A stretch of DNA of 64,000 bases from Hysterangium stoloniferum. Taxonomy: Eukaryota; Basidiomycota; Agaricomycetes; Hysterangiales; Hysterangiaceae. The notes beneath the pieces are model-generated. The model was not told the origin of the DNA. It searched no databases and saw nothing but the letters and a program-made list of their open reading frames with translations. Position 1 is the first letter of the stretch. Every line of letters begins with the position of its first letter. The position numbers and the translations under genes were made by a program. Of this stretch, positions 19,202 to 60,526 are shown in pieces. Location: positions 124,001 through 188,000 of the forward strand of contig WHVD01000064.1 of the NCBI GenBank assembly GCA_015178975.1, given 5' to 3'.

Positions 19202-19824
19202 GGAGGATAGTCACAATTCATTGAATACACAAAATTTTATGAAAAACTCCTCATATTTTTAAGTGAGACTATTTCTCCTGGCTATGACTACATGTTTTAG
19301 GGATTTATATTTCATTAACCCAAAATTTCATCTTTAAGACTTGTACACTCCCTTAAAATATGTACAAATGTCATGGTTATACAAGATTATCTGGGTTGTT
19401 ACCTAATCTTTGGGATAAAATGCATTCTCTAGTATCTCCATGACTTTTAAAATGTCCACAAATGTTATAGTTAACCAAAATTACTCGGGTTATGACTTAA
19501 TCTTTTGGATAAGATGGATTCTCTTGTATATTATGCAAACTTTCAAATATAGTTCATATAATTTAAATTTATTTGGTTTAGAAAGTTAACCAGAACTATC
19601 TGGCCAACCAATCCATGTTGTGGAATTTATCCCCAAAAGGATAATCTATATATGTTTGTTTGACTAACTTTTGTCAGAAGATACAAGATAAATATTAATA
19701 TTTCCTTATTCTCCAGAATATTATCTGATAGGCTGAATTTGATTAAATATTAATTTTACAACAAACAATATAAATATATATACTTTAGTGGATAAATAAC
19801 TTTTAAAGTTTTCGGTTATCCTCC
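19202..19824. mobile_element. D element (MITE-like, 623 bp), copy 1
   Basis: AT-rich non-coding repeat starting GGAGGATAGTC and ending GGTTATCCTCC, so its ends are short inverted repeats (GGAGGATA/TATCCTCC). Other copies are at 50550-51168 and, truncated, at about 52515-53000. It has no TG...CA ends and no coding frame. No target duplication could be fixed. Confidence 0.7.
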
Positions 19825-24286: not shown

Positions 24287-25434
24287 TGTGAGGAGTATGC
24301 TTTTACCACAGTTTCATTGTAGTAAAACACTCCTTTTATTTCATTTATATTTTACATATTTTACTCACATTTTCCTATCCTTTACATTCTTTGACTATTG
24401 CACCATTTCATTAGTTTGAAGCTCTGTGTATACTTGTGGGTGCTCTCAGCACCAAATAAAGACAGACACACTTTTACCCAAGCACCACCACTCGTAAGAC
24501 ACAAACTACAGTAGGTCTACAGTGAGCGGTGACCAGGGTAACATGTCAGCTACCACATAGGCGTTACAACCGTGTCGCAACCCGACAGTCCCTGAGGTTA
24601 TCACCACCTATCGATGTTTCAAGTTAGCATTCAAGTCACCGCATCAGAAACTGTTGGACTCCCGACACTGACATATGCTTTCGTGGTGATCAAACTCTGT
24701 TTACACCCCCATCAAAATATACTCGTACTATCTGGTTAAACTCTGATACATCCCTTTTTATTATGATGATCCATTCTACTCTATGTTTCACATATGTCTA
24801 TATATACTTGTAACCCTCAGACTATTTCCTTTTCTCGTAATCTTGCTCTCAGTTATTTCACAGCCTCTAAACTAATCGTAACCTTCCTGTTCCTAGTCAA
24901 GCTTATTTGTCAATACTGTGTTCCGCTCTTCTCCTAGTTAGTATTTTCTAGACACCGAATACTTGTATATGAACCCGCTGTAGTTATATTTACTAGGCAA
25001 TCAGAATATCGACTCAGAATACCCTCTTACACCTCTAGAAGTCTTATACTAAGTATTCCGCTATCCGCCTTCGCGTGCGCTCACCCACTCTTGGTCCCCG
25101 ACCCCTTGTCCCAACACTTGACTTATCCTTCATTTCCGATTGGTAACTCACCGAGAGAAACTCGTTAGGACTAGTCTTCACCTGTCTGAAATTTAAGGAC
25201 ACCCGACGGATATTTGCAAGGGCGCAGCACATAAGCTGAAGCCAAGTCCTTCCAATCAGTCCATGTCAGCCTACCGACATTAGTCAGTTTTCAGTTCTTA
25301 ACGATAGGTAGCATTATCTGAGCTAGCGAAAACTTCTGGCCTCAAACTATAACAGTCAAGGCCTCCACTCGAATCATCCCATTCTACTCATTTCTTCATA
25401 TATAGAACGGTCAGAACTTCCACCACTCTTCACA
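24287..25434 (+). mobile_element. Solo LTR, family G (copy 1), containing LTR-B
   Basis: Starts TGTGAGGAGTATG and ends CCACTCTTCACA, flanked by CTCTT (24282-24286 and 25435-25439). It sits in the first exon of the Tnp2 gene. About 400 bp remain after removing the B insertion at 24562-25303. A TATA-like CATATATAGAAC lies near its end. Confidence 0.88.
24562..25303 (+). mobile_element. Solo LTR, family B (copy 1)
   Basis: 742 bp, matching other B copies end to end, with target duplication ATAGG (24557-24561 and 25304-25308). The terminal dinucleotides have drifted from TG...CA. The uninterrupted target sequence is visible in the other G copy near 58470-58490. TATA-like CTATATATACTT is at about 24798. 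Confidence 0.88.
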
Positions 25435-43514: not shown

Positions 43515-46500
43515 TCAGAGAGATGATAGTGGTCCAGGTTTGAGGGAGTAAGCTGTATGAAAGTCAGTAACGATTTCTGTGGCATTACCGAGTTCCATGG
43601 CCAAAATCCATGAGGTTTCTTCATTGGTGCCCTCATAACCGGCCCACTTGACCAAGTAAAGCAGTTTACAAGTGCGTCGATGCTTGTCAATTTTCGAATC
43701 TAAAATTTGCGAGATTTCAAACTTGGGTTCTCCATCAATAATGACCAGAGGAGGCGGAGATTGCATGCGATCCAGGATAGTGTTGGCAGTACAAGGTTCT
43801 AGCATAGAAACATGAAATACCGGGTGTACCACGTGCATGTTATCTGGAAGCTGTAGAGTCCAAGAGACTGAACCTACTTGTGCGATAATTTCAAACGGAC
43901 CTAAATATTTTGCAGCAAGCTTTTTTGATGGACGGGTAGTCTGGAAGAATTGAGCTTTGACAAAAACACAATTGCCAATCTTGAAGTTTGGTGGTGGGAC
44001 CCAGTGTTTGTCCACTGAATGTTGATATTGCTCTTGCGCGGACATTATTGCAGTCCGGAGTTCCTCGTGGAGCTTGTGGAGGTCTGTGGTGAACTCTTGA
44101 GCACAAGCAGAGGTGAGATTTCATTCTGGATGTACTGTAATATTTGGATTATATCCTTTATTTGCAAAGAACGGGGAAATGCCAGTAGTGGCCGAGGGTG
44201 CATTGTTGTAAGCAAACTCTGGTAACAAGGATTTCCAATTGTCCTGTTGGTAATTGCAATATACATGGAGATATTGTTCCAATGTCTGATTGATGTGTTC
44301 AGTTTGTCCGTTGCCTTCCGGGTGATGTCCAGATGTGAAATGTAATGTCATGTCTAAGGATTTCCCGAGGAATCTAAAGAAGTGAGAGATGAACTCTGAT
44401 CCTCAATCGGAAGTCACGTGGGATGGAACTCCGTGCTTGGAAAATACGTGGATAATGAAAAGTTCCACTAACTGCACGGATGTAATAGTATCATAAGTAG
44501 GGATGAATATACCTTGTTTTGAGAATCTGTCAACAATGACTAGAATGGCGGAAAAGCCTTCAGAATCTGGTAGGTGTTCAATAAAATCCATAGAGATAGA
44601 ATTCCATGGATGTTCTGGTACCGGGAGTTGTTTCAAAAGGCCGTATGGCTTGTGTCACTGAGATTTCAAGTGGGGACAAGTAGTGCAAGATTTACAATAG
44701 TGTTTAACGAATCCACGGAGTCTGGGCCAAGTGTATCCTCTTCTTATTAATGATAGATTTTTGTTGTACCCGAAATGTCCTGAGAGTGGATGATCATGTT
44801 TGTATTGAAGGATCCTGAGGTGGAGTCCATTGGAGTCCGGTACATAGATTCGATCGTCAAGTCTAATGAAACCATGCTGATCAAGAGACCACTGAGGTTG
44901 ATCGGGGCCCACGGGATTGTCAAGGTAGCTTTAGTTATCGGGTCTAGTGGAATTGCCGATAGAATATCTTGATGTAACTTCTCAATATCCATAATGATAA
45001 TTCCACGGACAATGGGATTGATGAGGAAAGTTGCGTGGACTGATGTGGTAAGTTGTTGATTCGTGAAAATAGGTTTCAGGTTGTGCGGGTTTACCGTGGC
45101 ATAGTCATTGCTCCCCTCTTTAGGATAGATGTCCCATCATCTAGTTAAAGTGTCGGGTTTGCCACCGAGATGGCCTGGTCGAAAACGGATAATCATGTTG
45201 AAGGCAGATAGATATTCAGACCAGCGGGCCTGCCAGCAGATCAAAAGTTTTGTGGTAGAAAAGTATTCCAGGTTTTTGTGATCTGTTACAACATCAATAG
45301 GAGTTCCCAAGCCTTCCAAATAGTGTCACCACGCTTTGAAAGCTGAAAAGATTGCCAAGAGTTCCTTATCATGAACATCGTAGTTTAGCTCTGCTCTGGT
45401 AAAAGTCTGGGATAGAAAAGCCATGGGGTGTACTTCTCCATCGGAGTCCTGGATAGACAGAATGGCTCCAAGCACATAATCCGAGGCATCCGTTTCAACG
45501 ATGAGCGGGAAGTCCGGTTTCCAATGCAACAGAATAGGAGCTGAGGAAAAAGAATTTTTTAAAAGATTGAAAGCTTTTTGACACTTATCGTTAAAATTCC
45601 ACAGAGTATCCTTACACGTAAGATGGGTAAGGGGTACCATGATGTTGGAATATCCATGGATAAGCTGTCTGTAAAGATTGGCAAAGCCGAGGAAGGATTG
45701 TATATGTTTAACTTGTCAGGGTTCAGGCCAATATTTGATGACTTGCACCTTAGTTTTGTCCATGCGGAGTCCATCGGGTCCCATGATGAAACCCAGGTAT
45801 TCCATGGAGTCCGTGTCAAAAGTACATTTTTTACCATTTGTGAATAAACCATGTTGTCTGAGTCTCCAGAGAACTTCATGGACTTGTTTGTCATGTTCCG
45901 TGGGATTCTCGGAGTAGATAAGAATGTCATCCAAGTAAACAATAATGTATACATCGAGCATGTTGGAGAAAATGTCATTGATAAAACACTGAAAAACAGA
46001 CGGAGCATTGGTGAGTCCAAAGGGCATCACCAACCACTCGAAGGCCCCATAGCGGGTTCTAAAAGTGGTTTTCCATTCGTCACCTGCAGCGATCTGGACC
46101 AAGTGATAGGCGTGTTTGAGATCTATCTTGGTGTAAATCCAGGCATTCCATGGGGCATCAAGCAGATCAGATATGAGTGGAAGTGGATACTTATCCTTTT
46201 CGGTGACAGCATTGAGTCCTCTAAAATCAATACATAGTCGAAGGGATCCATCCTTTTTTCTGACAAACAGAACAGGTGCTCCAAATGGAGACTTTGAGGG
46301 TCTGATAAAACCTATGGACAAATGTTTATCCAGGAAATCGCGGATTACGGAAGGTTCTGTGGACGAGAGCAGATAAATATGTCCTAGGGGTGGCTGGGTG
46401 CCGTCTTCAAGATCGATTTTTAAGTCGTATTCTCTGTGGGGCGGAAGCCGGTCAGCTTTCCGCTTGCTAAAAACATCTGCGAAGTCATGATATTTCTCCG

Positions 46501-49036
46501 GGATGCCTTCTAGGTCAGCAGCTTCGGATACCGGGGTTGAAAAATGTCCAGTTGCTTCATCAATTTTTAAGTTGATAGTGAACGCCTGGGACCCGTCCAT
46601 TTTTGAAGCCCTAATAAAAGCTGCAGCATTAATCAGAGAAATAGATGGAGGTGCCGTGGGTTCCAGGGAAGCCATGGGTGCTGTAGGGATCACAGGAGTC
46701 CTCGAGACTGCAGGTGCCGGGAAGGCCATGGGTGCCGTGGAGGCTGGGACAGGCATAGTTTCCTCAGCTGCCATGGGGGTCTGGAATGTTATACTGTTAG
46801 CTATCCAGTCAATCAACGGATTGTAGCGGGTAAGCCAGTTGTGTCCAAGGACCACCGAGCAACTTGAGTCTAACTGGGTCACATAGAAAGTGACCAATTG
46901 AGATGTTCCATACAGGAAACAGATGGATAAATCACAAGCTTGGGTAACAACCAAATTACTTGTGCCATCGAAGAGGCAGAGGCCGATGGGATTTATCAGA
47001 TAAGTTGACAAAGAATCTTTTTGTGTGAATTTTGTATCTAAAAGACAATGAGTTGAGCTGGAATCTATAAGAGCTGAAAAAACGAATTTCAGAATCATAT
47101 TAGACATAAGTTTAATGAAAAATGAATCAGAATGTGAAAGAGCGGATGCGTTGAGACAAGTAAACTCTTGAATGCACGGAGAGGCAATGCAACCCCCAAC
47201 CCATGCGGAGTCCGCGGGGTTGCTTACTCTTTTTTCGAGTCGGAAGCTGGTTTGTCCTTCAACGGGGTTTCTGTGGAGGCCTTGGCTGTTCAACCCTTTG
47301 AAGAGTTTGCTTTTGCCAGCAGACATTCCAGGATTCGAGCACAAGAGACAGAGGTTATTGTCCATATGACATTGTCTTTCCTGTGGAGTCAATTTGCCAT
47401 CGGGTCCGAGTTTGCTTGAGCGGTCAGGTTTTCCGGCTTGTTTGCTGGACTGTTGACCCTTGTTATTATCCTTGTTGTTGTTGTTGTTGTTAGAAGACTT
47501 TTTATTGTTCTTCTTGTCAGATTGCGTGGAGTTTTGGTTGCTGGTTGATGAGTTGTTGTTGTTTGTTTTATTGGCCGTGGACTTGTTTACTTTGTCCGCG
47601 GAGGTCTTGTGGGCAACTTCCGTGCGACGTTCCCAATAACATGCACCCACGTTTTGAGCTTTGAGGCACATACGGGACAGGGTTTTTGGCTTGCCATCTT
47701 CTCCTTTCGAGACTTCGTCTTTAAGGTGGGACGGCAGACCGGCGTAGAATTGGTGGTGGAGAGTTGGATCACCCCACTGACAACGAGCTGCAAGATTATT
47801 GAATTGGACAATGTAGTCCGTGATGCACTGCATGTCCTTCATATGAAGATTTGTGAGACTGTTCTCAGCTTCTCCTGTTGGATCATATGGGCCAAAGTTG
47901 GTTTCAAGCTCCTCAACAAAAGCATCCCAATCTTCAAGCCAAAGCGGCTCTTCCTCGGAAATTCCACTAAAAGCCAGTTTGAACCATTTCAACGTGGATC
48001 CTGACAAGTATGACAGTGCGTAGTTGACTTTGTGGGAGTCCGTGGAGAATGCAGCAGATCGATCGCGGAAATTGAAGCAACATTGCATGAGGAAAGTAGA
48101 GAGTTTGTTTTGGTTGGAACCCATGAAGGGTTCCGGAGCATTGACCTTTGACCGTGGAGGTTCTTGTTCCTTTTTCTTTTGTTCTTGGAGCAGGTGCGTC
48201 ATAAATTTATCTATAGTACCTGCTAAAAATTCAGAAGTAGGATCCCCCAAGTGTGGTCGTTGACTAGACGGAGGATTTTCGACACCTTTGCCCTTGTTGG
48301 GGGCCACAGATTCATCCTCATGCTCACATTCATCCTGGTTTTCCGGGACTTCTTCGATACGGGCTTCTTCCATGGGTTCTGACTGGTTCACAAGCATCTG
48401 GCTGGTATACAAAGTTAACGGGGAATGAAGAGTCAACGGTCCAGGTAATGATGCCTGTGTGTTCGCTTTCTTTCTTGGTGGCATATTGAAAACAATCTGC
48501 GAGTCTTAGTTAGAAAATACTGTTAGGACACGTACAGGGCGGGTCTCCAGAGAAACCCACGGAATATCCAGTAGGACTTGGCTTCAGCTTATAGGCTGCG
48601 CCCTCGCTAGATCGTGTTGTCCAATTTCAGACTGGCGGATGGGAATCCCAGGGAGTCCGGGCGGGGGTCGTGGGTTGAGGGGTCATAGGTCGGAGGTCAT
48701 GGGTCGTGAGTCGAGATAGGTGAGAGAGATAGATGCACCGGAGCCCGTGGACTCTGACTAGTGTGAGCGGTGTGATTCAAGTAGGAGTTTAGAGCAGAAA
48801 ATGTATTAGATTACTGGGGGGAATCTAAGCCGATTTTCTGACTGGATTGTATGTACAACATCTGCCAGTTTAAATAGACCATGGAGTGAATGTCATACCA
48901 AATCCAGTAATGATGAAACGAAATGAGCAAAACATAAAACGGGAATAGTAAACACCAAATTGGTGTTAGGAACAGGACGGAACGGAGTGGAGTCCGAATA
49001 GTGACAAATCATAAACCAAAATGGGAAACGGAGTGG

Positions 49037-50428: not shown

Positions 50429-50549
50429 ATGGGGCTCTGTTAGAGAGATGACAGGTTTTCTGAGCAGGGTCCGGTGACCAATGTGTGGGACGAGGTTGGA
50501 AATAGACAGAGATGGAGTCTGGTGGGTTTTCCGGTGACTGAAACACAAT

Positions 50550-51168
50550 GGAGGATGGTCACACTTAATTGAATATACAAAATTTTACTGAATAATCCTC
50601 ATATTTTCCAAGTGTGTCTATTCCTTCTGGCCATGACAACTTATTCTATGAGTTTATATTTAATTACCTGAAATTTCATCTTTAAAATATGCATGCCCTT
50701 TTAAAATATGCATGCCCTTTTAAAATATGCACAAATGACATAGTTACACAAGATTATTTGGGTTAACCTAGATTATTTGGGTTAACCTAGATTATTTGGG
50801 TCAAACAAGATTATTTGGGTTAAACAAGATTATTTGGGTTATGACTTAATCTTTGGGTTATGATCTATTCTCTTGTATACAAGCAAACTTTCAAATATAT
50901 TTCATATGATTTAAATGTAGTTGGTTTAGAGAGTTAACCAGAACTATCTGGGGTACCAATCCCCATTGTGCAATTTATTCCAAAAGAATACTCTATAGAT
51001 GATTGTTTGACTAAATTTTGTCAGATATAGGATAAATATTAATATTTTTGCATTCTTTAGAGTGATACCTAATCAACTGAATTTGATTAAATATTAATTT
51101 TACAACAAACAATATAAATATATATACTTTAGTGGATAAATAACTTTTAAAGTTTTGGGTTATCCTCC
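50550..51168. mobile_element. D element (MITE-like), copy 2
   Basis: GGAGGATGGTC...GGGTTATCCTCC, 619 bp. It is internally duplicated near 50680-50830 (several TTAAAATATGC and AGATTATTTGGGTT units). The left neighbour is a cut LTR-A, the right neighbour a cut LTR-B end, so it marks a chimeric junction. Confidence 0.7.
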
Positions 51169-51362
51169 TAAGCTGAAGCCAAGTCCTTCTGATCAGTCCC
51201 TGTCGGTCTACCGACATTAGTCAGTTTTCAGTTCTTACCAGTTCTGAACAAAGGATCTGGAAGTCCCGCAGATTTTCCGGTAATTATTCCAAACACACTT
51301 TCCAGGAATGTCCCATGGAGTCCCTGGGTAATCAGTCTGGGGAATTTCTCAGTCATAACAGA
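51169..51362. mobile_element. LTR fragments (family B end plus an unassigned LTR)
   Basis: 51169-51240 matches the last 70 bp of LTR-B in plus orientation (AAGCTGAAGCCAAGTCC to CAGTTTTCAGTTCTTA). It runs into about 120 bp ending TTCTCAGTCATAACA that fits no other family here. Confidence 0.55.
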
Positions 51363-51431
51363 AGGTGTCTAGTTGGGGGGGCAGACTGACAGAATGGGAT
51401 GTGAGTCAAAGGGTACTTGAGGGATGAGGGT

Positions 51432-52169
51432 GTTAAGAACTGAAAACTGACTAATGTCGGTAGGCCAATGGGGACCGATCGGAAGGACTTGGCTTCAGCT
51501 TATATGCTGTGCCCTCGCAAATAACCGTTGGGTGTCCTTAAATTTCGGATGGGCAAAGACTAGTCCTAATGAGTACCTCTCAGTGAGTTACCGATTGGGA
51601 CCGAAGGATAAGTTGAGTGTCGGGCCAAGGGGTCAGGGACCGAGAGTGGGCAAGTGCATGTGAAGGTGGAGAGTGGGATACTTAGTGTAAGACTTCTAGA
51701 GATGTATGTAGGTGTTCTGAGTCGATATTCTGATTGCCTAGTAACTACAACTACAGTGGGTTCATATACAAGTATTGGGCATCTAGAAAATACTAACTAA
51801 GGGAAGAGTGGAAACATTATTGACAAATAAACTTGACTAGGAATGGGAAGGTTACAATAAGTTCAGAGGCTGTGATTAACTGAGAGCAGAATTACGAGAA
51901 AAGGAAATAGTCCGAGGATTACAAGTATATATAGGCATATGTGAAACATAGAGTTGAACGGATCATCATAATAAAAAGGGACGTATCAGAGTATAACCAG
52001 ATAGCTCAAGTATATTTTGACAGGGGTGTAAATGGGGTTTGATCGCCATGAAAGCATACATCAGCATTGGGAGATGATGGTTTCCGATGCGATGACTTGA
52101 TTGATAACTTGAAACGTCAATAGATGGTGATATCCTCAGGGACCATCGGGTTGCGACACAGTCATAACA
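51432..52169 (-). mobile_element. Solo LTR, family B (copy 2)
   Basis: TGTTAAGAACTGAAAAC...ACAGTCATAACA, 738 bp. Flanking 5-mers differ (GAGGG and AGAAC), so no target duplication is claimed. Confidence 0.85.
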
Positions 52170-52182
52170 AGAACTTAACATT

Positions 52183-54079
52183 TGTTAGTCATTGATGGTA
52201 TAATGAAAATGGACAAATTTTTGTATGTATGACCAAGCTGCTGTAAAGTACATCTTAGCCAGGTATATTTTACAAAAGTGCATATTTAGTAAATTGTGAG
52301 TTTCCTCAACAACTTACAACATTAATATAACTAAAACCAACATGCCCACTTGATGCAAAATTCATCTGAAAATTGAAAACAAAAATCCACTGTGCCCACT
52401 AGACACAATATTCATCCAAAACTTGAAAATACACTGCACCCACCAGATGCAGAAACCATCTGGTACTTTTGGTGTCAAATTGAACCTCAGAGCATCCCTT
52501 ACTCCTAGTATGGGAAAAGTCCTCATATTTTTAAGTGAGACTATTTCCTTTGGCTATGACTATATGTTTTAGGAGTTTATATTTCATTACCCCAAAATTT
52601 CATCTTTAAAACTTGTATACTCTTTTAAAATATGCAATGTCATGGTTAACCAAAATTATTTGGGTTATGACTTAATCTTTGGGATAAGATGTATTCTCTT
52701 GTATATTATGCAAACTTTCAAATGTAGTTCATATAATTTAACTTTATTTGGTTTAGAAAGTCAATCAGAACTATCTGGCCAACCAATCCATGTTGTGGAA
52801 TTTATCCCCAAAAGGATAATCTATATATGCTTGTTTGTTTGACTAACTTTTGTCAGATACAAGATAAATATTAATATTTCCTTATTCTCTAGAGTATCAC
52901 CTGATAGACTGAATTTGATTAAATATTAATTCTACAACAAACAATATAAATATATATACTTTAGTGGACAAATAACTTTTAAAGTTTTGGGTTATCCTCC
53001 CTCCCAGAATAAAAAAAATGCTGGACCTTGGAGCCCTTCTCATGACTCGTAGTCCACATGATGATATTAGACATGCAAAATAAAAACATTCTCCCCTGTG
53101 CTTACAGTGAGAGCCTCTGGGTTTTTGGTAGGTGATCCACTCATTGACAAATCAACTGGCTTCAGTGCAGGACAAAAATGCACAATATGACCTTTGCCAT
53201 TGCATCTATAGCAGTTTCTCAGTTGTTTCACAATTGGTGAGTCTGTTTTTGCTTTCAGGGCAAACTGATCATTATTGTCCTTCCAGCCCTTTATATGGCT
53301 CTCCTCTTCCACCAGTGCTGCCGAAATATCTTTGACGGTAAGTGATCCTACTAGCTGCATGAGAGCAGTTGCAACTGCACTAAACTCTGGAGCTAAACAA
53401 TAGATAAGGACATCTGGCACATCCTCCTCATGTAATTCGACTCTAATTGCTCAAAGTTGCAAAGCAAGAGTCAGAATCCTGTGTACATATTCCATCACCA
53501 GTGTTTCAACATTGTGACTGTATGTATACAGCTGCCATTTCAATGAGATCCAGTTGGCCTGATTATTTGCCTGGTAACCTTTTGTGTGCTTTCTATGCCT
53601 CAGGTCCAGTAGTACAATCCCAAATATACGATTGTTGACTTGTTTCGATTATAAGCCCAATCACTGTGTAACCATCCTCCAAATGCTTTTCCCATTCCAA
53701 ATACTCCTTGCTACTCTCATCTTTAGGTGGCTTTGTTCCACTACTCACAACACTCCAAGATCCAGAATGCTGCAGAACTATTGACAGTGAAAATTTCCAT
53801 TCATGGTAATTATCACCTGAGAGTTTTAGGACACTTGCAAGTAAGGCATTGATGTTAGACATAAGATGATGAGATAGTATTAATGTGACTTTTTAAAGCA
53901 ATGAGGTGGGGCCTATACCCTGTTAGATGTTGACAGTATAATTAAAATGGACAAAGTTTTGTATGTATGACTAAGCCCCTGTAAAGTACATCTTAGCCAA
54001 GCATATTCTACAAAAGTGCATATTAGTAAATTGTGAGTTTCCTCAACAACTTACAACATTAATGTAACTAAAACCAACA
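52183..54079 (-). mobile_element. Gag-only copia-type element (copy 1)
   Basis: LTRs of 159-160 bp (53921-54079 and 52183-52342, TGTTAG...AACCAACA on the plus strand). Between them is only a gag-type region. It holds a DUF4219/UBN2-like start (MSNINALLASVLKLSGDNYH, 53862 downward), the gag core, and a CCHC knuckle with surrounding CYRCNGKGHIVHFCP (about 53160-53225). A 3' non-coding part and the left LTR follow, with no protease, integrase or RT. It is broken a few times and carries a truncated D element in its 3' part. The plus-strand copy at 55232-57371 has the same layout. Confidence 0.8.
52515..53000. mobile_element. D element (MITE-like), copy 3, left-truncated
   Basis: Matches D copies from TCCTCATATTTTTAAGTGAG to GGGTTATCCTCC; the first 50-60 bp are missing. 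Inserted in the 3' part of the minus-strand gag-only element. Confidence 0.7.
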
Positions 54080-54714
54080 TTATTTGCCACCTCATACCAT
54101 TTAGAATACTTTTGTTACATCCATTTAGTTTTAGTTTGATCCTTGCCTTCCATGCTTCCCTTGACCAATCACTACTTCCCACTTCCTTGATTGGACCTCC
54201 AGCCCTCCATTATACTTTTGTATAAAGTTCCTACCATGTATGCTATAGTTCCTTAGTTTGAAACTCAGCCTAGATTACCCCCACTTCAACTTACATTACA
54301 CTCCTCTTGTCCAAACCCCCTTACTCTTCTCTTAATACCCTCAAAGATGTCATCAGCAAGCCACAACTCTTACCCACATGACTCTTAGTATATTGGCCCT
54401 CCAGTCAATTGAGCTAAGTGTGGTCTTTAGTCTCTGTCATAATATCTGCTCTGTTTGAAATACTTGCCTTCAAGAAAGAAACCATCAGAACAACCATCAG
54501 AACAACCGAATTTACTGGAGTCTTCCACTCTCCAGTGACCATTCATTTTGTAGACCACCCAGACACACAGAAACCAACCAGGCACCACAGATGAATCCCA
54601 TATTGAAGAAGTACTGGAGAATCTGTTGAAAACCCCCCAACTATGGAATGACCACATCTTGAAGCTCCCATTTCTAAACTGTTATCAGGTATGTTAAAAA
54701 AATATATTACTCAC
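54080..54714. other. No gene recognised
   Basis: C/T-rich sequence without motifs; the minus-strand frame 54427-54657 has no family signature. Confidence 0.4.
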
Positions 54715-55231
54715 CTGCTCAAAGAAAGAAAGAAGAAAGATCAGGAGCCCCCATGGTCAATGGTCAATGCTCTGGAACCCTTCATGGGCTTTAACCCCAA
54801 AAAACTGTCCACTTTCCTCATACAGTGTCACTTTAACTTCTGTGATTGACCTACCACATTTTCCACAGACTCCCAAAAGTCAACTATACACTCTCTTACC
54901 TCTCAGGATCCACATTGAAATGGTTCAAACTGGCTTTTAGTGGACTTACTAGGGGAGAGCCAACCTGGCTTGAAGATTGGAATGCATTTGTTGAAGAACT
55001 GGAAATGAATTTTGGCCCATATGACCCAACCAGAGAAGCCAAGAACAGCCTCACAAAGCTTCACATGAAGGACAACCAGCATACATATATGGACTATATC
55101 ATCCAATTCAATAATCTGGCAGCATGTTGCCAATGGGGTGATGTAAGGGCAACCCCTACTACCTAATATTCACACTAGGCTAGCATGAGGGAATGCGAAG
55201 ATATATTAGAATTAATATATATACAAGCAGC

Positions 55232-57371
55232 TGTTAGCGTATGTTGTATTGCAAGCTGTTGACACATTTCAATGCTCGGCTATTTCGTACTTTACAGTCA
55301 CTTAGTCATTGTAAATAAACCTTGTCCGTTTTCGTTACACCTCATTGAACAGGTTATGGGCCCCGCCCCATTGCTTTAAAAAGTCACACTAATACTGTCT
55401 CATCATCTTATGTCTAAGTATCCCAAAACTCTCAGGTGATAACTACCACAAATGGAAATTTTCACTGTCAATGGTTTTGCGGCGTTGTTACGACTGTGTC
55501 ACAACCCTTCACACACCGACGGTCCCCGATGGTATATCGTAGTTATACGTCTTCAACAAGACAAGATCTCGGAAGCCGTCGGTCCCCCGACGCTGACGTA
55601 TGCTCTCCGGTCAATCAAACCCGACTACGCCTTTCTGTCTGGTTATGTTTTGATACATCCCTTTCATTATGTTGATCTGTTCCACTCTATGTTTCACACA
55701 TGTCTATCTATATTTGTAGTCCTCGAACTATTTCCTTTTATCGTAATTTCCATTCTCGGTTATCATCGGCCTCCGAACTAATCATAAACTTCCCGTTCCT
55801 AGTCAAGCTTAATGCTAATACCGTTTTCCGCCCTTCTCCCATTAGTATTTTCTAGACGCCTGTTACTTGTATATGAACCCGCTGTAGTTGTAGTTACTAG
55901 GCAATCAGAATATCGACTCAGAATACCCTCATACGTCTGTAGCAGTCTCATACTGAGAATCCCCCATCCGCCTTCGCGTGCACTCGCCCACTCTCGGCCC
56001 CGACCCCTCGGCCCGACACTTGACTTGTCCTTCGGTTCCTATCGGTATCTCGCCGAAAGGTTCTTCTTAGGATTTAGTCTTCGCCCGTCTGAAATTTAAG
56101 GACAACCAACGGATAATTGCAAGGGCGCAGCACATACATAAGCTGAAGCCAAGTCCTTCCGATCGGTCCCTGTCGGCCACCGACATTAGTCAGTTTTCAG
56201 TTCTTAACAGGCGTGCTGGATCATGGAGTGTTGTTAATGGTGGAACAAAGGCACCTAAGGATGAGAATAGCAAGGAGTATTTGGATTGGGCAAAGCATTC
56301 GGAGGATGGTTACATGGCAATTGGATTGACAATTGCGTCAAGCCAACAATCATATATTCGGGATTGCACCACTGGACCAGAGGCATGGCAAGCACTTGCG
56401 AAAATCTATCAGGCAAATAATTGGGCCAATCGGATTTCATTGAAATGCCAGCTCTATATGTATCAACATGATGTCAAAAAGCCAGTGATGGAATATGTCC
56501 ATGGCATTTTGACTCTGGCTTCGCAGCTTTGAGCGATTGGAGTCGAGTTACGTGATGAGGATGTGCCGGATGTCCTCATCTATTGTTTGGCTCCAGAATA
56601 TGGTGCAGTAGCAACTGCTCTTATGCAGCGTGTGGGATCACTTACAGTTGAAGAAATTTCCACGGCGCTGGTAGAAGAAGAAAGCCATCTAAAAGGGCGG
56701 AAAGAAAATGAGGGTCAGATTGCCATGAAAATGAAAGTCAACTCACCAAATATGCGACAGCCAAAGAATTGCTATAGATGCAACGGCGAAGGTCACATTG
56801 CGCATTTTTGTCCTGTGCCGAGGCCGGTTGTTTCATCTTCAAATGGATTACCTACTGAAAACCAGGAGATCCCCACTGATAGCACAGGGATGAGTGCTTA
56901 TATTTTGCACACTTGAAATCATCACATGGACTAGGAGTTGCGAGTAGGGCTCCAAGGTCCGGCATTTGTTTGTCATCTGGGAGGTTGGGGGAACGCGTTC
57001 TAAGAGCGAGGATGCTCTGAGGTTCGGTTCGACGCCAAATGTACCAGACGAATATTGCATCTAGTGGGCGCAGCGAGTTTCTCAAAATTTTCGAGCAGTT
57101 CTGCGTCTAGTGGGCGCAGCAGGTTTTTGTGTCAACTTCGGGATGGATTTTGCGTTGTGGGCACAATATCTTTGTGTGTTGAAAATGGTTTATTTCTCAT
57201 GTTTCATGTGTATGGACTTACTACACATCTCAGTGACTTGCAAAGTGGGCATGTTAGCGTATGTTGTATTGCAAGCCGTTGATGCATTTCAACACTCAGC
57301 TATTTCGTACTTTACAGTAGCTTAGTCATTGTAAATAAACCTTGTCCATTTTCGTTACACCTCATCGAACA
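55232..57371 (+). mobile_element. Gag-only copia-type element (copy 2), both LTRs and target duplication present
   Basis: LTRs 55232-55351 and 57252-57371, each 120 bp (TGTTAGCGTATG...GAACA), about 92% identical, flanked by GCAGC (55227-55231 and 57372-57376). GGTTATGGGCCCC follows the 5' LTR directly: the half initiator-Met tRNA primer site of copia. The body is gag only: a UBN2-like region (starting GSWSVVNGGTKAPKDE, to TTGPEAWQALAKIY and later MPDVLIYCLAPEYGAVATAL) and a CCHC knuckle (CYRCNGEGHIAHFCP, about 56770-56815). About 335 bp of non-coding DNA then runs to the 3' LTR. Net length is about 1.42 kb after removing LTR-B. A few breaks in gag. Confidence 0.88.
55496..56209 (+). mobile_element. 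Solo LTR, family B (copy 3)
   Basis: TGTTACGACTGTGTC...TTCAGTTCTTAACA, 714 bp, with target duplication GGCGT (55491-55495 and 56210-56214), inside gag of the gag-only element. Confidence 0.92.
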
Positions 57372-58208
57372 GCAGCTACCTAACTCACCTAGCAGGAGGG
57401 AATCCAAAGAGAAACAGTCTAAGGAATTCCTCCTGCAAGGTGTGACCCATAGGCACCCAGTAGTCTGAAAATAACTCTACCTAATACAGAACAGGGACCT
57501 TTCCCACAATGGAATACTAATGCTGTGAGCTTCTAAGTTAATTATTAAGTTGCATGTCGCAAGGTTGAAAGTCCGACAGGGTCTGAATGGTAGGACATGC
57601 CTTCAGCTTATGTGCTGCACCCTTTCAAAGGTTCCATCAGTTGTCCTGGTATTTCAAGTGTATGGGACTTAACTGTCGGAAACCCGAACAGCAAAGAACT
57701 GTCAGATTCCTGGGTTGTTTGAAGGCAGGGAAGAAGGAGATGAATGGAAGTATGAGAGATGAACAAAGAACTGGAAGAGTAACTTAGTCGATATTATGAT
57801 TTGTCCTGTAACTACTTTACAGCTCAGTATTAATACAGATTTCCAGTGTCAAAAGCATACTAATGAGGAGACAAGGAAACTACCAAAGCAGGACAAGACT
57901 ATCACTGTTTAGGGAATACAACATATTTGGGTTTCCAATATTCAGAAAATACATATTAGGATGAAAGGACATAACACAGTTGGACATACAGATTGTACTA
58001 ACATCTGAGAGCATGGGTAATATTAGGTGACTCAGGGCACCTTGGGATCCTGAATGTGGGTTGTAACATTTATCACCTACTCCTCAGAGGCATGTATTAG
58101 CCAGAGTAGTTGATATCCACAAGGAGAGGGAAAGTGATGAAAGGCATGGGGTTGGACTGTGGACTCAGGACTTCAATAAGATGAGAAAATGGTACTCCCT
58201 AGGGTCTG

Positions 58209-58966: not shown

Positions 58967-60526
58967 TGTTAAGAACAGAAAACTGACTGATGTCAGAAGA
59001 CTGACAGGGACTGGATGGAAGGAGTTGGTTTGTATGTGCTGCACCCTTGCAAATTACCATCGGGTGTCCTTAAATTTCGGGTGGGCAGAAAACTAAGTCC
59101 TATCAAATAATCCTCTCAGTAAGTCACCAATCAGAAACTGAAGGATAGTTGGTGGTCGTAGGGTCGGAGACCGAGAGTGAGTGAGTGCAGGTGAAAGCGG
59201 GAGCGGGATACTTAGAGCAGGACTATGAGAGAGGGATACAAGTGTTCTGAGTTGATATTTTGATTGACTTGTAGCTACATTACAGTAGGACTTAAATACT
59301 AATTATCGGCATCTCGAAATACTAACTAAGGTAAGAGCAGAAATGTCCAACTAGTGACAAATAAACTTGATTAGAAACTGGAGGGTTACGATACGATCAG
59401 AACCTGTGATTAACCAAGAGCAGAATTACAAGAAAAGGAAATAGTCCAAGGGCTACAAGTATATATGGGCATATGTGAAATATGTAGAACTGTTAGGATA
59501 CGTACAGGGCAGGTCTCTGGAGAAACCTGCAGAATATCCGGTAGGACTTGGCTTCAGCTTATAGGCTGCGCCCTCGCTAGATCGTGTTGTCCAATTTCAG
59601 ACAGGTGGACGGGAATCCCGGGGAGTCCGGGCGGGGGTCATGGGTCGAGGAGTCGTAGGTCAGAGGTCGTGGGTCGTGAGTCAAGATAGGTGAGAGAGAT
59701 AGATGTGCCGGAGCCCGTGGGCTCTGACTAGTGTGAGCGGTGTAATTCAAGTAGGAGTTTAGAGTGGAAAATATATTAGATTACTGGGGGGAATCTAAGC
59801 CAATTTTCTGACTGGATTGTATGTACAACATCTGCCAGTTTAAATAGACCGTGGAGTGAATGTCATACTGAATCCAGTAATAATGAAACGAAATGAGCAA
59901 AACATAAAATGGGAATAGTAAACACCAATTTGGTGTTAGGAATGGGACGGAACGGAGTGGAGTCCGAATAGTGACAAATCATAAACCATAACAGGAAATG
60001 GAGCAGGAGCAGAGTCTGAATCGTGACAGGTCATTTGACTAAAATGGGAATGGGGCTCTGTTGAGAGGTGACGGGTTTTCTGAGCAGGGTCCGGTGACTG
60101 ATGCACGGGATGAGGTCGGAAATAGACAGAGATGGAGTCCGGTGGGTTTTCTGGTGACTGAAACACAACGTAATGAAGATGAACATAGATGAGTCTGACG
60201 TACGGAGTCCAGTGGGAATTCTGGTAAACTGATAATGGGTGCGTATAGGGTGGCGCGGGTGTGTATAAGTTAGTGCCCAGAGTCTGGTGGGATTTCCAGT
60301 TGTAACAAGAACAGATCAAACATAATAAAAAAGAGGCATATCAAAGCATAACCAGATGGTATGAGTATAACCTGACAGGGCCGTAAATGGGGTTTGATCA
60401 CCATGAGGGTATACATCAGTGTCGGTTTACCAATGGCTTCTGATACAATGACTTTGGCCAGTAACTTGAAGCACAGATGGACAATAGTACCATTGGGGAC
60501 TGTCAGGTTGCGACACAGTCATAACA
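58967..60526 (-). mobile_element. Solo LTR, family B (copy 4), containing LTR-A
   Basis: TGTTAAGAACAG...ACAGTCATAACA with target duplication GACAG (58962-58966 and 60527-60531), in the Asn-rich part of the gypsy gag fossil. Net about 738 bp. Confidence 0.93.
59491..60307 (-). mobile_element. Solo LTR, family A (copy 8)
   Basis: TGTTAGGATACG...CAGTTGTAACA, 817 bp, with target duplication AGAAC (59486-59490 and 60308-60312), inside LTR-B copy 4. Confidence 0.94.

Follow-up and report, generated by a model that had tools for sequence, protein, structure and literature searches.

The window analysed here, 64,000 nucleotides of the fungus Hysterangium stoloniferum, contains two copies of a retrotransposon in opposite orientation (52183–54079 on the minus strand and 55232–57371 on the plus strand), each with a gag gene between two long terminal repeats (LTRs). 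An earlier note on this DNA had placed them at the same coordinates and taken them for members of a mobile non-autonomous family and not for two chance deletions; the first statement holds, and the second is supported by 46 distinct units of the same anatomy in the genome, 41 of them with perfect target-site duplications (TSDs). We consider it very probable that these units form a long-lived, recently mobile, non-autonomous LTR family of copia type, belonging to the TR-GAG kind, in a fungus, and that the family lost pol once and kept gag.

The genome searched was the window's own (111,116,353 bp in 554 contigs). Ninety loci surrounding the top matches to LTR, gag and tail, together with two cuts of the window, gave 92 sequences, of which 78 had an LTR pair around gag and collapsed to the 46 units. 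Because the loci were chosen as best-scoring matches, young copies resembling the window plus copy (plus-type) are over-represented among them. The 14 dropped sequences missed gag or the LTR pair: four were without gag (L004, L017, L022 and L030), five were truncated, gapped or interrupted (L028, L053, L079, L080 and L090), and in five the cut missed one end (L001, L002, L006, L015 and L061); some dropped copies are counted among the 46 through another cut.

A typical unit of about 1.43 kb consists of an LTR (120–160 bp), a primer-binding site (PBS), a Gag of 264–265 aa, a non-coding tail of about 260–350 nt, a polypurine tract (PPT) and the second LTR. Thirty-nine units measure 1384–1454 bp and the remaining seven 1717–2140 bp. 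All five TSD bases agree in the 41 units mentioned (39 different sequences, the window minus copy being included only under an alternative LTR start) and four of five in two units; two others are without a TG/CA call and one (L082) is badly bounded. The gag frame is open across 264–265 codons in 22 units. LTR identity within units ranged from 90.7 to 100%, reaching at least 98% in 14 units and 100% over the BLAST segment in six, so that the family appears to have moved recently, judged from identical LTRs alone. A 28-nt LTR core with up to three mismatches occurred at 311 places in the genome versus none in the reversed control, and solo LTRs exist among these places, for example L004 with TSD CATTC; among 199 candidates for the tail, 40 scored places have it directly 3′ of gag. 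That the two window copies are unrelated decayed fragments, alike by chance or through two separate deletions, would agree with the broken state of both; considering the 46 units and their TSDs, we rejected this candidate and give it hardly any probability.

The earlier note had asked whether most genomic copies carry pol between gag and the 3′ LTR. None of the 46 LTR-bounded gag units is long enough, and there is no room in any of them for protease, integrase, reverse transcriptase and RNase H. Through the 100 exact LTR-core places listed (of the 311), we obtained 31 same-strand neighbour pairs, 26 spaced at 1270–1333 bp and the others at 680, 990, 1016, 1745 and 2034 bp; allowing distances up to 15 kb, no pair of pol length was found among these 31, none exceeding 2034 bp. 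Thirty-eight of the 100 places were unpaired in the list, and for 17 of these the gag listing has nothing within 4 kb, although a pair of them (C223:1836092 and C268:389466) have gag in a second gag search. The two gag searches scored the best 150 of 224 and 144 of 741 candidates, with identities of 36–100% (short pieces included) and 47–100%, respectively, and none of these scored matches lay within a frame longer than 433 aa. By comparison, other PF14223 matches in the genome (150 of 1177 candidates scored) lie in frames as long as 1508 aa, and RVT_2 is abundant (150 scored of 1270 candidates). No pol-bearing element sharing LTR or gag was found among the LTR-core pairs, the scored gag matches and the RVT_2 places, the cross-check covering 59 of the 150 RVT_2 places listed, part of 150 gag rows and the 100 LTR-core places. 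The case that a pol-bearing relative is absent thus appears strong but not complete, because only the best candidates were scored.

The units were grouped by the start of the LTR: group A with TGTTAGATTA, group B with TGTTAGAATA and group C with other TGTTAG starts are plus-type, and group D with TGTTGG is minus-type; the badly bounded L082 was assigned to group A by its sequence. The gag-to-LTR junctions of the two window copies, whose unrelatedness the earlier note had named as a ground for giving up its reading, are related: in seven sequences, groups A–C and D align without a break across the gag stop, the tail, the PPT-like AAAGTGGGC with a following A or G, and the LTR. Since the junction from gag through the tail to the LTR is collinear in both types, the loss of pol probably preceded the separation of the plus-type and minus-type lineages. 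Deletion derivatives are common, and the two subfamilies might instead be separate internal deletions of pol-bearing parents extant until recently, with gag conserved in the complete parents; such a parent could be missed by gag searches scoring 150 of 224 and 144 of 741 candidates. Against this stand the collinear junction, tail included, the scored gag matches, none of which is a pol-bearing relative, and the 31 LTR pairs, none of pol length; we regard separate deletions as quite improbable.

The split is old. The earlier note had read strongly different LTRs and a shared layout as a sign of an old and maintained design, and both parts are supported: the LTRs of the plus and minus copies are 72–78% identical over the 55–69 nt that align ungapped, and group A versus group D gag gave a nonsynonymous rate (dN) of 0.135, a synonymous rate (dS) of 0.71 and a dN/dS of 0.19 (15 pairs, all against the single open minus-type gag, L094). 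L056 and L094 gag differ at 155 sites, distributed 36/33/86 over codon positions 1/2/3. When these substitutions were placed at random in 500 runs, the median dN/dS was 0.63 (0.35–1.05), 7.0 stops arose on average and no run was free of stops. Plus-type ratios within and between groups were 0.23–0.44. L050 (401 codons) was omitted throughout, and L012, L033 and L037 (257, 327 and 286 codons; three of 26 frames) were left out of the final values, their lengths pointing to shifted ends; with these three included the plus-type ratios were 0.38–0.68, and group A versus the minus type was 0.19 either way. Because the junction is shared and the ratio is 0.19 versus at least 0.35 at random, it is most likely that gag was kept by selection in the gag-only state. 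As a separate observation, going from L056 to L094 (plus to minus type), G to A and C to T changes make up 76 of the 155 differences, versus 36 in reverse; this bias would be consistent with methylated cytosines having mutated in the older copy.

Several points weigh against our interpretation. TSDs of the minus type do not match fully (L094 has GCTAG/GCTGG and L091 GTGTA/GTTTT, and at the homologous boundary the window copy agrees in three of five bases), no helper element was identified in the searches described, only one minus-type gag is open, and dN/dS was calculated pairwise and not per branch. Moreover, gag is interrupted in two of the six units with identical LTRs, and therefore gag in cis is perhaps not strictly needed. 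The interrupted frames speak for gag as a passive passenger, in which case an RNA equipped with a suitable LTR, primer site and tail would be mobilised wholly in trans and open frames would reflect no more than youth; LTR pairs on contigs C1 and C486 that enclose a different open reading frame (ORF) in gag's place, treated below, point in the same direction. The ratio of 0.19 across the old split, versus at least 0.35 and a mean of 7.0 stops at random, and the plus-type ratios of 0.23–0.44 argue for constraint, and a passive gag seems unlikely to us, though somewhat less so than separate deletions.

The gag with a CCHC knuckle described earlier was recovered in an open relative, L051, the Gag of which (265 aa) matched Retrotran_gag_2 (PF14223) with 96.8 bits (Pfam cut-off 27) and zf-CCHC with 22.9 bits (cut-off 20.8). 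The window ORF pieces fell separately below the cut-offs (zf-CCHC 19.7 and 15.0 bits; Retrotran_gag_2 14.5 and 14.2 bits), while the plus copy gag read across its stop gave 98.2 bits for Retrotran_gag_2. Residues 11–219 of L051 Gag matched the Copia capsid 8vvw (E 2.2e-8). A scan of IMG/VR with the gag found nothing.

The primer motif ACAGGTTATGGGCC was exact in 45 of the 46 units, the window minus copy being the exception. An initiator-Met tRNA pattern present at three places in the genome includes GCGGGGCCCATAACC, and the reverse complement of this is exactly the 15-nt site GGTTATGGGCCCCGC that lies immediately 3′ of the plus copy 5′ LTR (55352–55366); the initiator-Met primer site proposed earlier thus matches the genome's own tRNA at 15 of 15 bases. 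Some other copies depart from the 15-nt site at its last few bases. The site is complementary to the anticodon region of the initiator-Met tRNA genes, and its use as a primer site is predicted from this match. Half-tRNA priming from this region is familiar from copia; the term "half tRNA" was not found in the literature searched. The 14-nt primer motif occurs 941 times in the genome versus none in the control, and therefore many elements share this primer site.

In the alignment of seven sequences, the 3′ LTR is preceded by the PPT-like AAAGTGGGC. A TCTAGTGGGCGCA-like motif that resembles this PPT occurs three times in the tail and is conserved in both the plus and the minus type; the tail also has a hairpin, about 75 nt long, in which 781 of 835 cells are paired over 35 distinct rows, with a two-sided change in only one pair. 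Alifold on 13 diverse tails gave z −6.7 versus shuffled columns, a weak control. Single-sequence folding gave z −1.67 (sense) and −2.53 (antisense) for L051, −0.31 for L094 and 0.63 for a gag stretch. Searches of the element with Rfam and ARAGORN (three loci) found nothing.

Considering these features, we propose that the LTR would drive an RNA encoding Gag, and that Gag made in cis would assemble a copia-like capsid around its own RNA, perhaps via recognition of the tail. Protease, integrase and reverse transcriptase would be supplied in trans by the many pol-bearing copia elements of the genome, among which at least one family shares the primer site, followed by half-tRNA priming and integration with a 5-bp duplication. 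A single loss of pol would have preceded the plus/minus split, and gag would have been retained since an element's own Gag helps its RNA to move. The direct evidence lies in the products, namely TSDs, identical LTRs, primer match and constrained gag, while helper, packaging signal and expression are inferred.

Family LTR cores also flank an ORF without a gag match, at C1:687965-688982 (a 990 bp pair) and C486:529450-530493 (a 1016 bp pair); no gag match lies inside either pair among the scored matches of both gag searches. At L095 (C1:688480-688840, minus strand) the ORF is followed by the start of the family tail (38 bp, 89%). An 85-aa piece of this ORF had no match in Pfam, PDB or NCBIfam, but scoring all 78 candidates in the genome gave 68 matches, of which the one on C486 lies within its LTR pair. 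At all eight ORF sites on C1–C20, contigs with a full list of primer motifs, the motif stands about 15–85 bp upstream on the same strand in a by-eye comparison. A single LTR/PBS/tail chassis, parasitic on copia enzymes and with interchangeable payloads, either Gag or a small protein of no known family, is a tentative proposal to which we give slightly less than an even chance. If true, this would be a retrotransposon lineage whose sole gene is neither gag nor pol, and the sister elements with the other ORF may reveal which cis parts suffice for mobilisation.

The family shares with plant TR-GAG elements two LTRs, a PBS, a PPT, a single Gag ORF and the lack of enzyme genes, and its paired LTRs carry TSDs. 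TR-GAG elements are characterised as shorter than about 4 kb, a limit below which the family units also fall. PMC10025401 gives length quartiles of 3,608, 4,837 and 8,054 bp for plant TR-GAG, compared with about 1.43 kb here. Evidence for movement of plant TR-GAG comes from Arabidopsis ddm1 (PMC8704663), where the mobile element has a very similar relative that is potentially autonomous, whereas none was found for the fungal family in the searches above. TR-GAG has so far been described in plants and the host here is a fungus (18 hydrophobin matches over the cut-off, versus such matches in 0 of 14 control genomes); the plant host is a matter of range and not a structural criterion. In a paper on Ectocarpus (PMC12477816), the term TR-GAG occurs in the reference list only. 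A fungal gag-only LTR family was not found in the partial collection of literature searched, and two fungal surveys (PMC3248453 and PMC4905642), in their accessible parts, mention non-autonomous elements, none of the gag-only kind.

Other known systems are less close. TRIMs lack coding sequence and the gag of BARE-2 is defective; like them, the fungal family would need enzymes in trans, but it keeps an open gag. TRIM and BARE-2 are given as non-autonomous classes in PMC10025401. Two autonomous Ty1/copia copies of one family in the same genome, L092 (C13) and L093 (C549), likewise have a Retrotran_gag_2 gag and an LTR with ACA at its end, followed immediately by the primer motif; in L092, RVT_2 is reached about 2.5 kb beyond the gag start. 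Their gag is only 26% identical to that of the gag-only family, this being the single pol-bearing copia family compared, and L092 has no DNA similarity to the gag-only element beyond the primer site. Drosophila copia, the source of the 8vvw capsid, resembles the family in capsid homology and in a primer site in the initiator-Met anticodon region, but is a complete element with pol. Set beside a complete Ty1/copia element, the family has the copia-type gag and the primer-site complementarity, and pol, which in such an element runs in the order protease, integrase, reverse transcriptase and RNase H, is absent from all 46 units; it is a non-autonomous derivative and not a full copia element.

There is good evidence for a known kind of element, TR-GAG, in a new host group, and for its age, recent activity and maintained gag. 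The gag-only way of life, described mainly in plants, is thereby extended to a fungus in very compact form, and the question is posed why a capsid gene is retained while every enzyme is borrowed. A single genome provides a natural test of this: its LTR-bounded copies number in the dozens and differ in age, they include two old subfamilies, and their gag shows apparent purifying selection although pol had probably gone before the subfamilies separated.

In the window, the layout given in the earlier note stood, including LTRs of 120–160 bp; it had overlooked a nested solo LTR in the plus gag, an insertion in the minus tail and the broken gag frames. The plus copy (55232–57371) has LTRs of 120 bp, 92% identical, at 55232–55351 (TGTTAG...GAACA) and 57252–57371, and the GCAGC duplication reported earlier is present on both sides (55227–55231 and 57372–57376). 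The start of its gag (55410–55485, frame broken, an inverted repeat to the minus copy) ends in GGCGT (55481–55485), which is duplicated on either side of a solo LTR 724 bp long (TGTTACGAC...TTAACA; 55486–56209, plus strand), which belongs to another family, is foreign to the element and has relatives in the window at 24728–25302, 51431–52004 and 58967–59483. The remainder of gag (56210–56916) contains an in-frame TGA after 56530, the CCHC knuckle, and ORFs at 56281–56532 and 56563–56916, followed by the non-coding tail (56917–57251) with repeated GTGGGC motifs and the PPT-like AAAGTGGGCA at its end (57242–57251).

The minus copy (52183–54079), of the minus-type subfamily, has LTRs of 159–160 bp, about 91% identical, at 53921–54079 (5′, TGTTGG...TAACA, the boundary being set by homology to L091 and L094) and 52183–52342 (3′). 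Its TSD varies with the boundary: AATAA/AATGT (three of five bases) at the homologous start TGTTGG, and AATGT/AATGT at TGGTTT. The primer site (53908–53920) has two changes (GGGTATAGGCCCC), while GGTTATGGGCCC is retained there in L091 and L094. Its gag (53067–53862, ORFs 53593–53862 and 53067–53420) is 65% identical to the C-terminal part of the plus gag, and the tail holds a foreign insertion of about 485 bp (approximately 52515–53000), with related repeats at 19243–19824 and 50548–51170. Since both gag frames are broken, both window copies are dead. Near them, at 45719–48505 on the minus strand, lies a gypsy-type element with an open frame of 929 aa matching Retrotrans_gag, RVP_2 and RVT_1.

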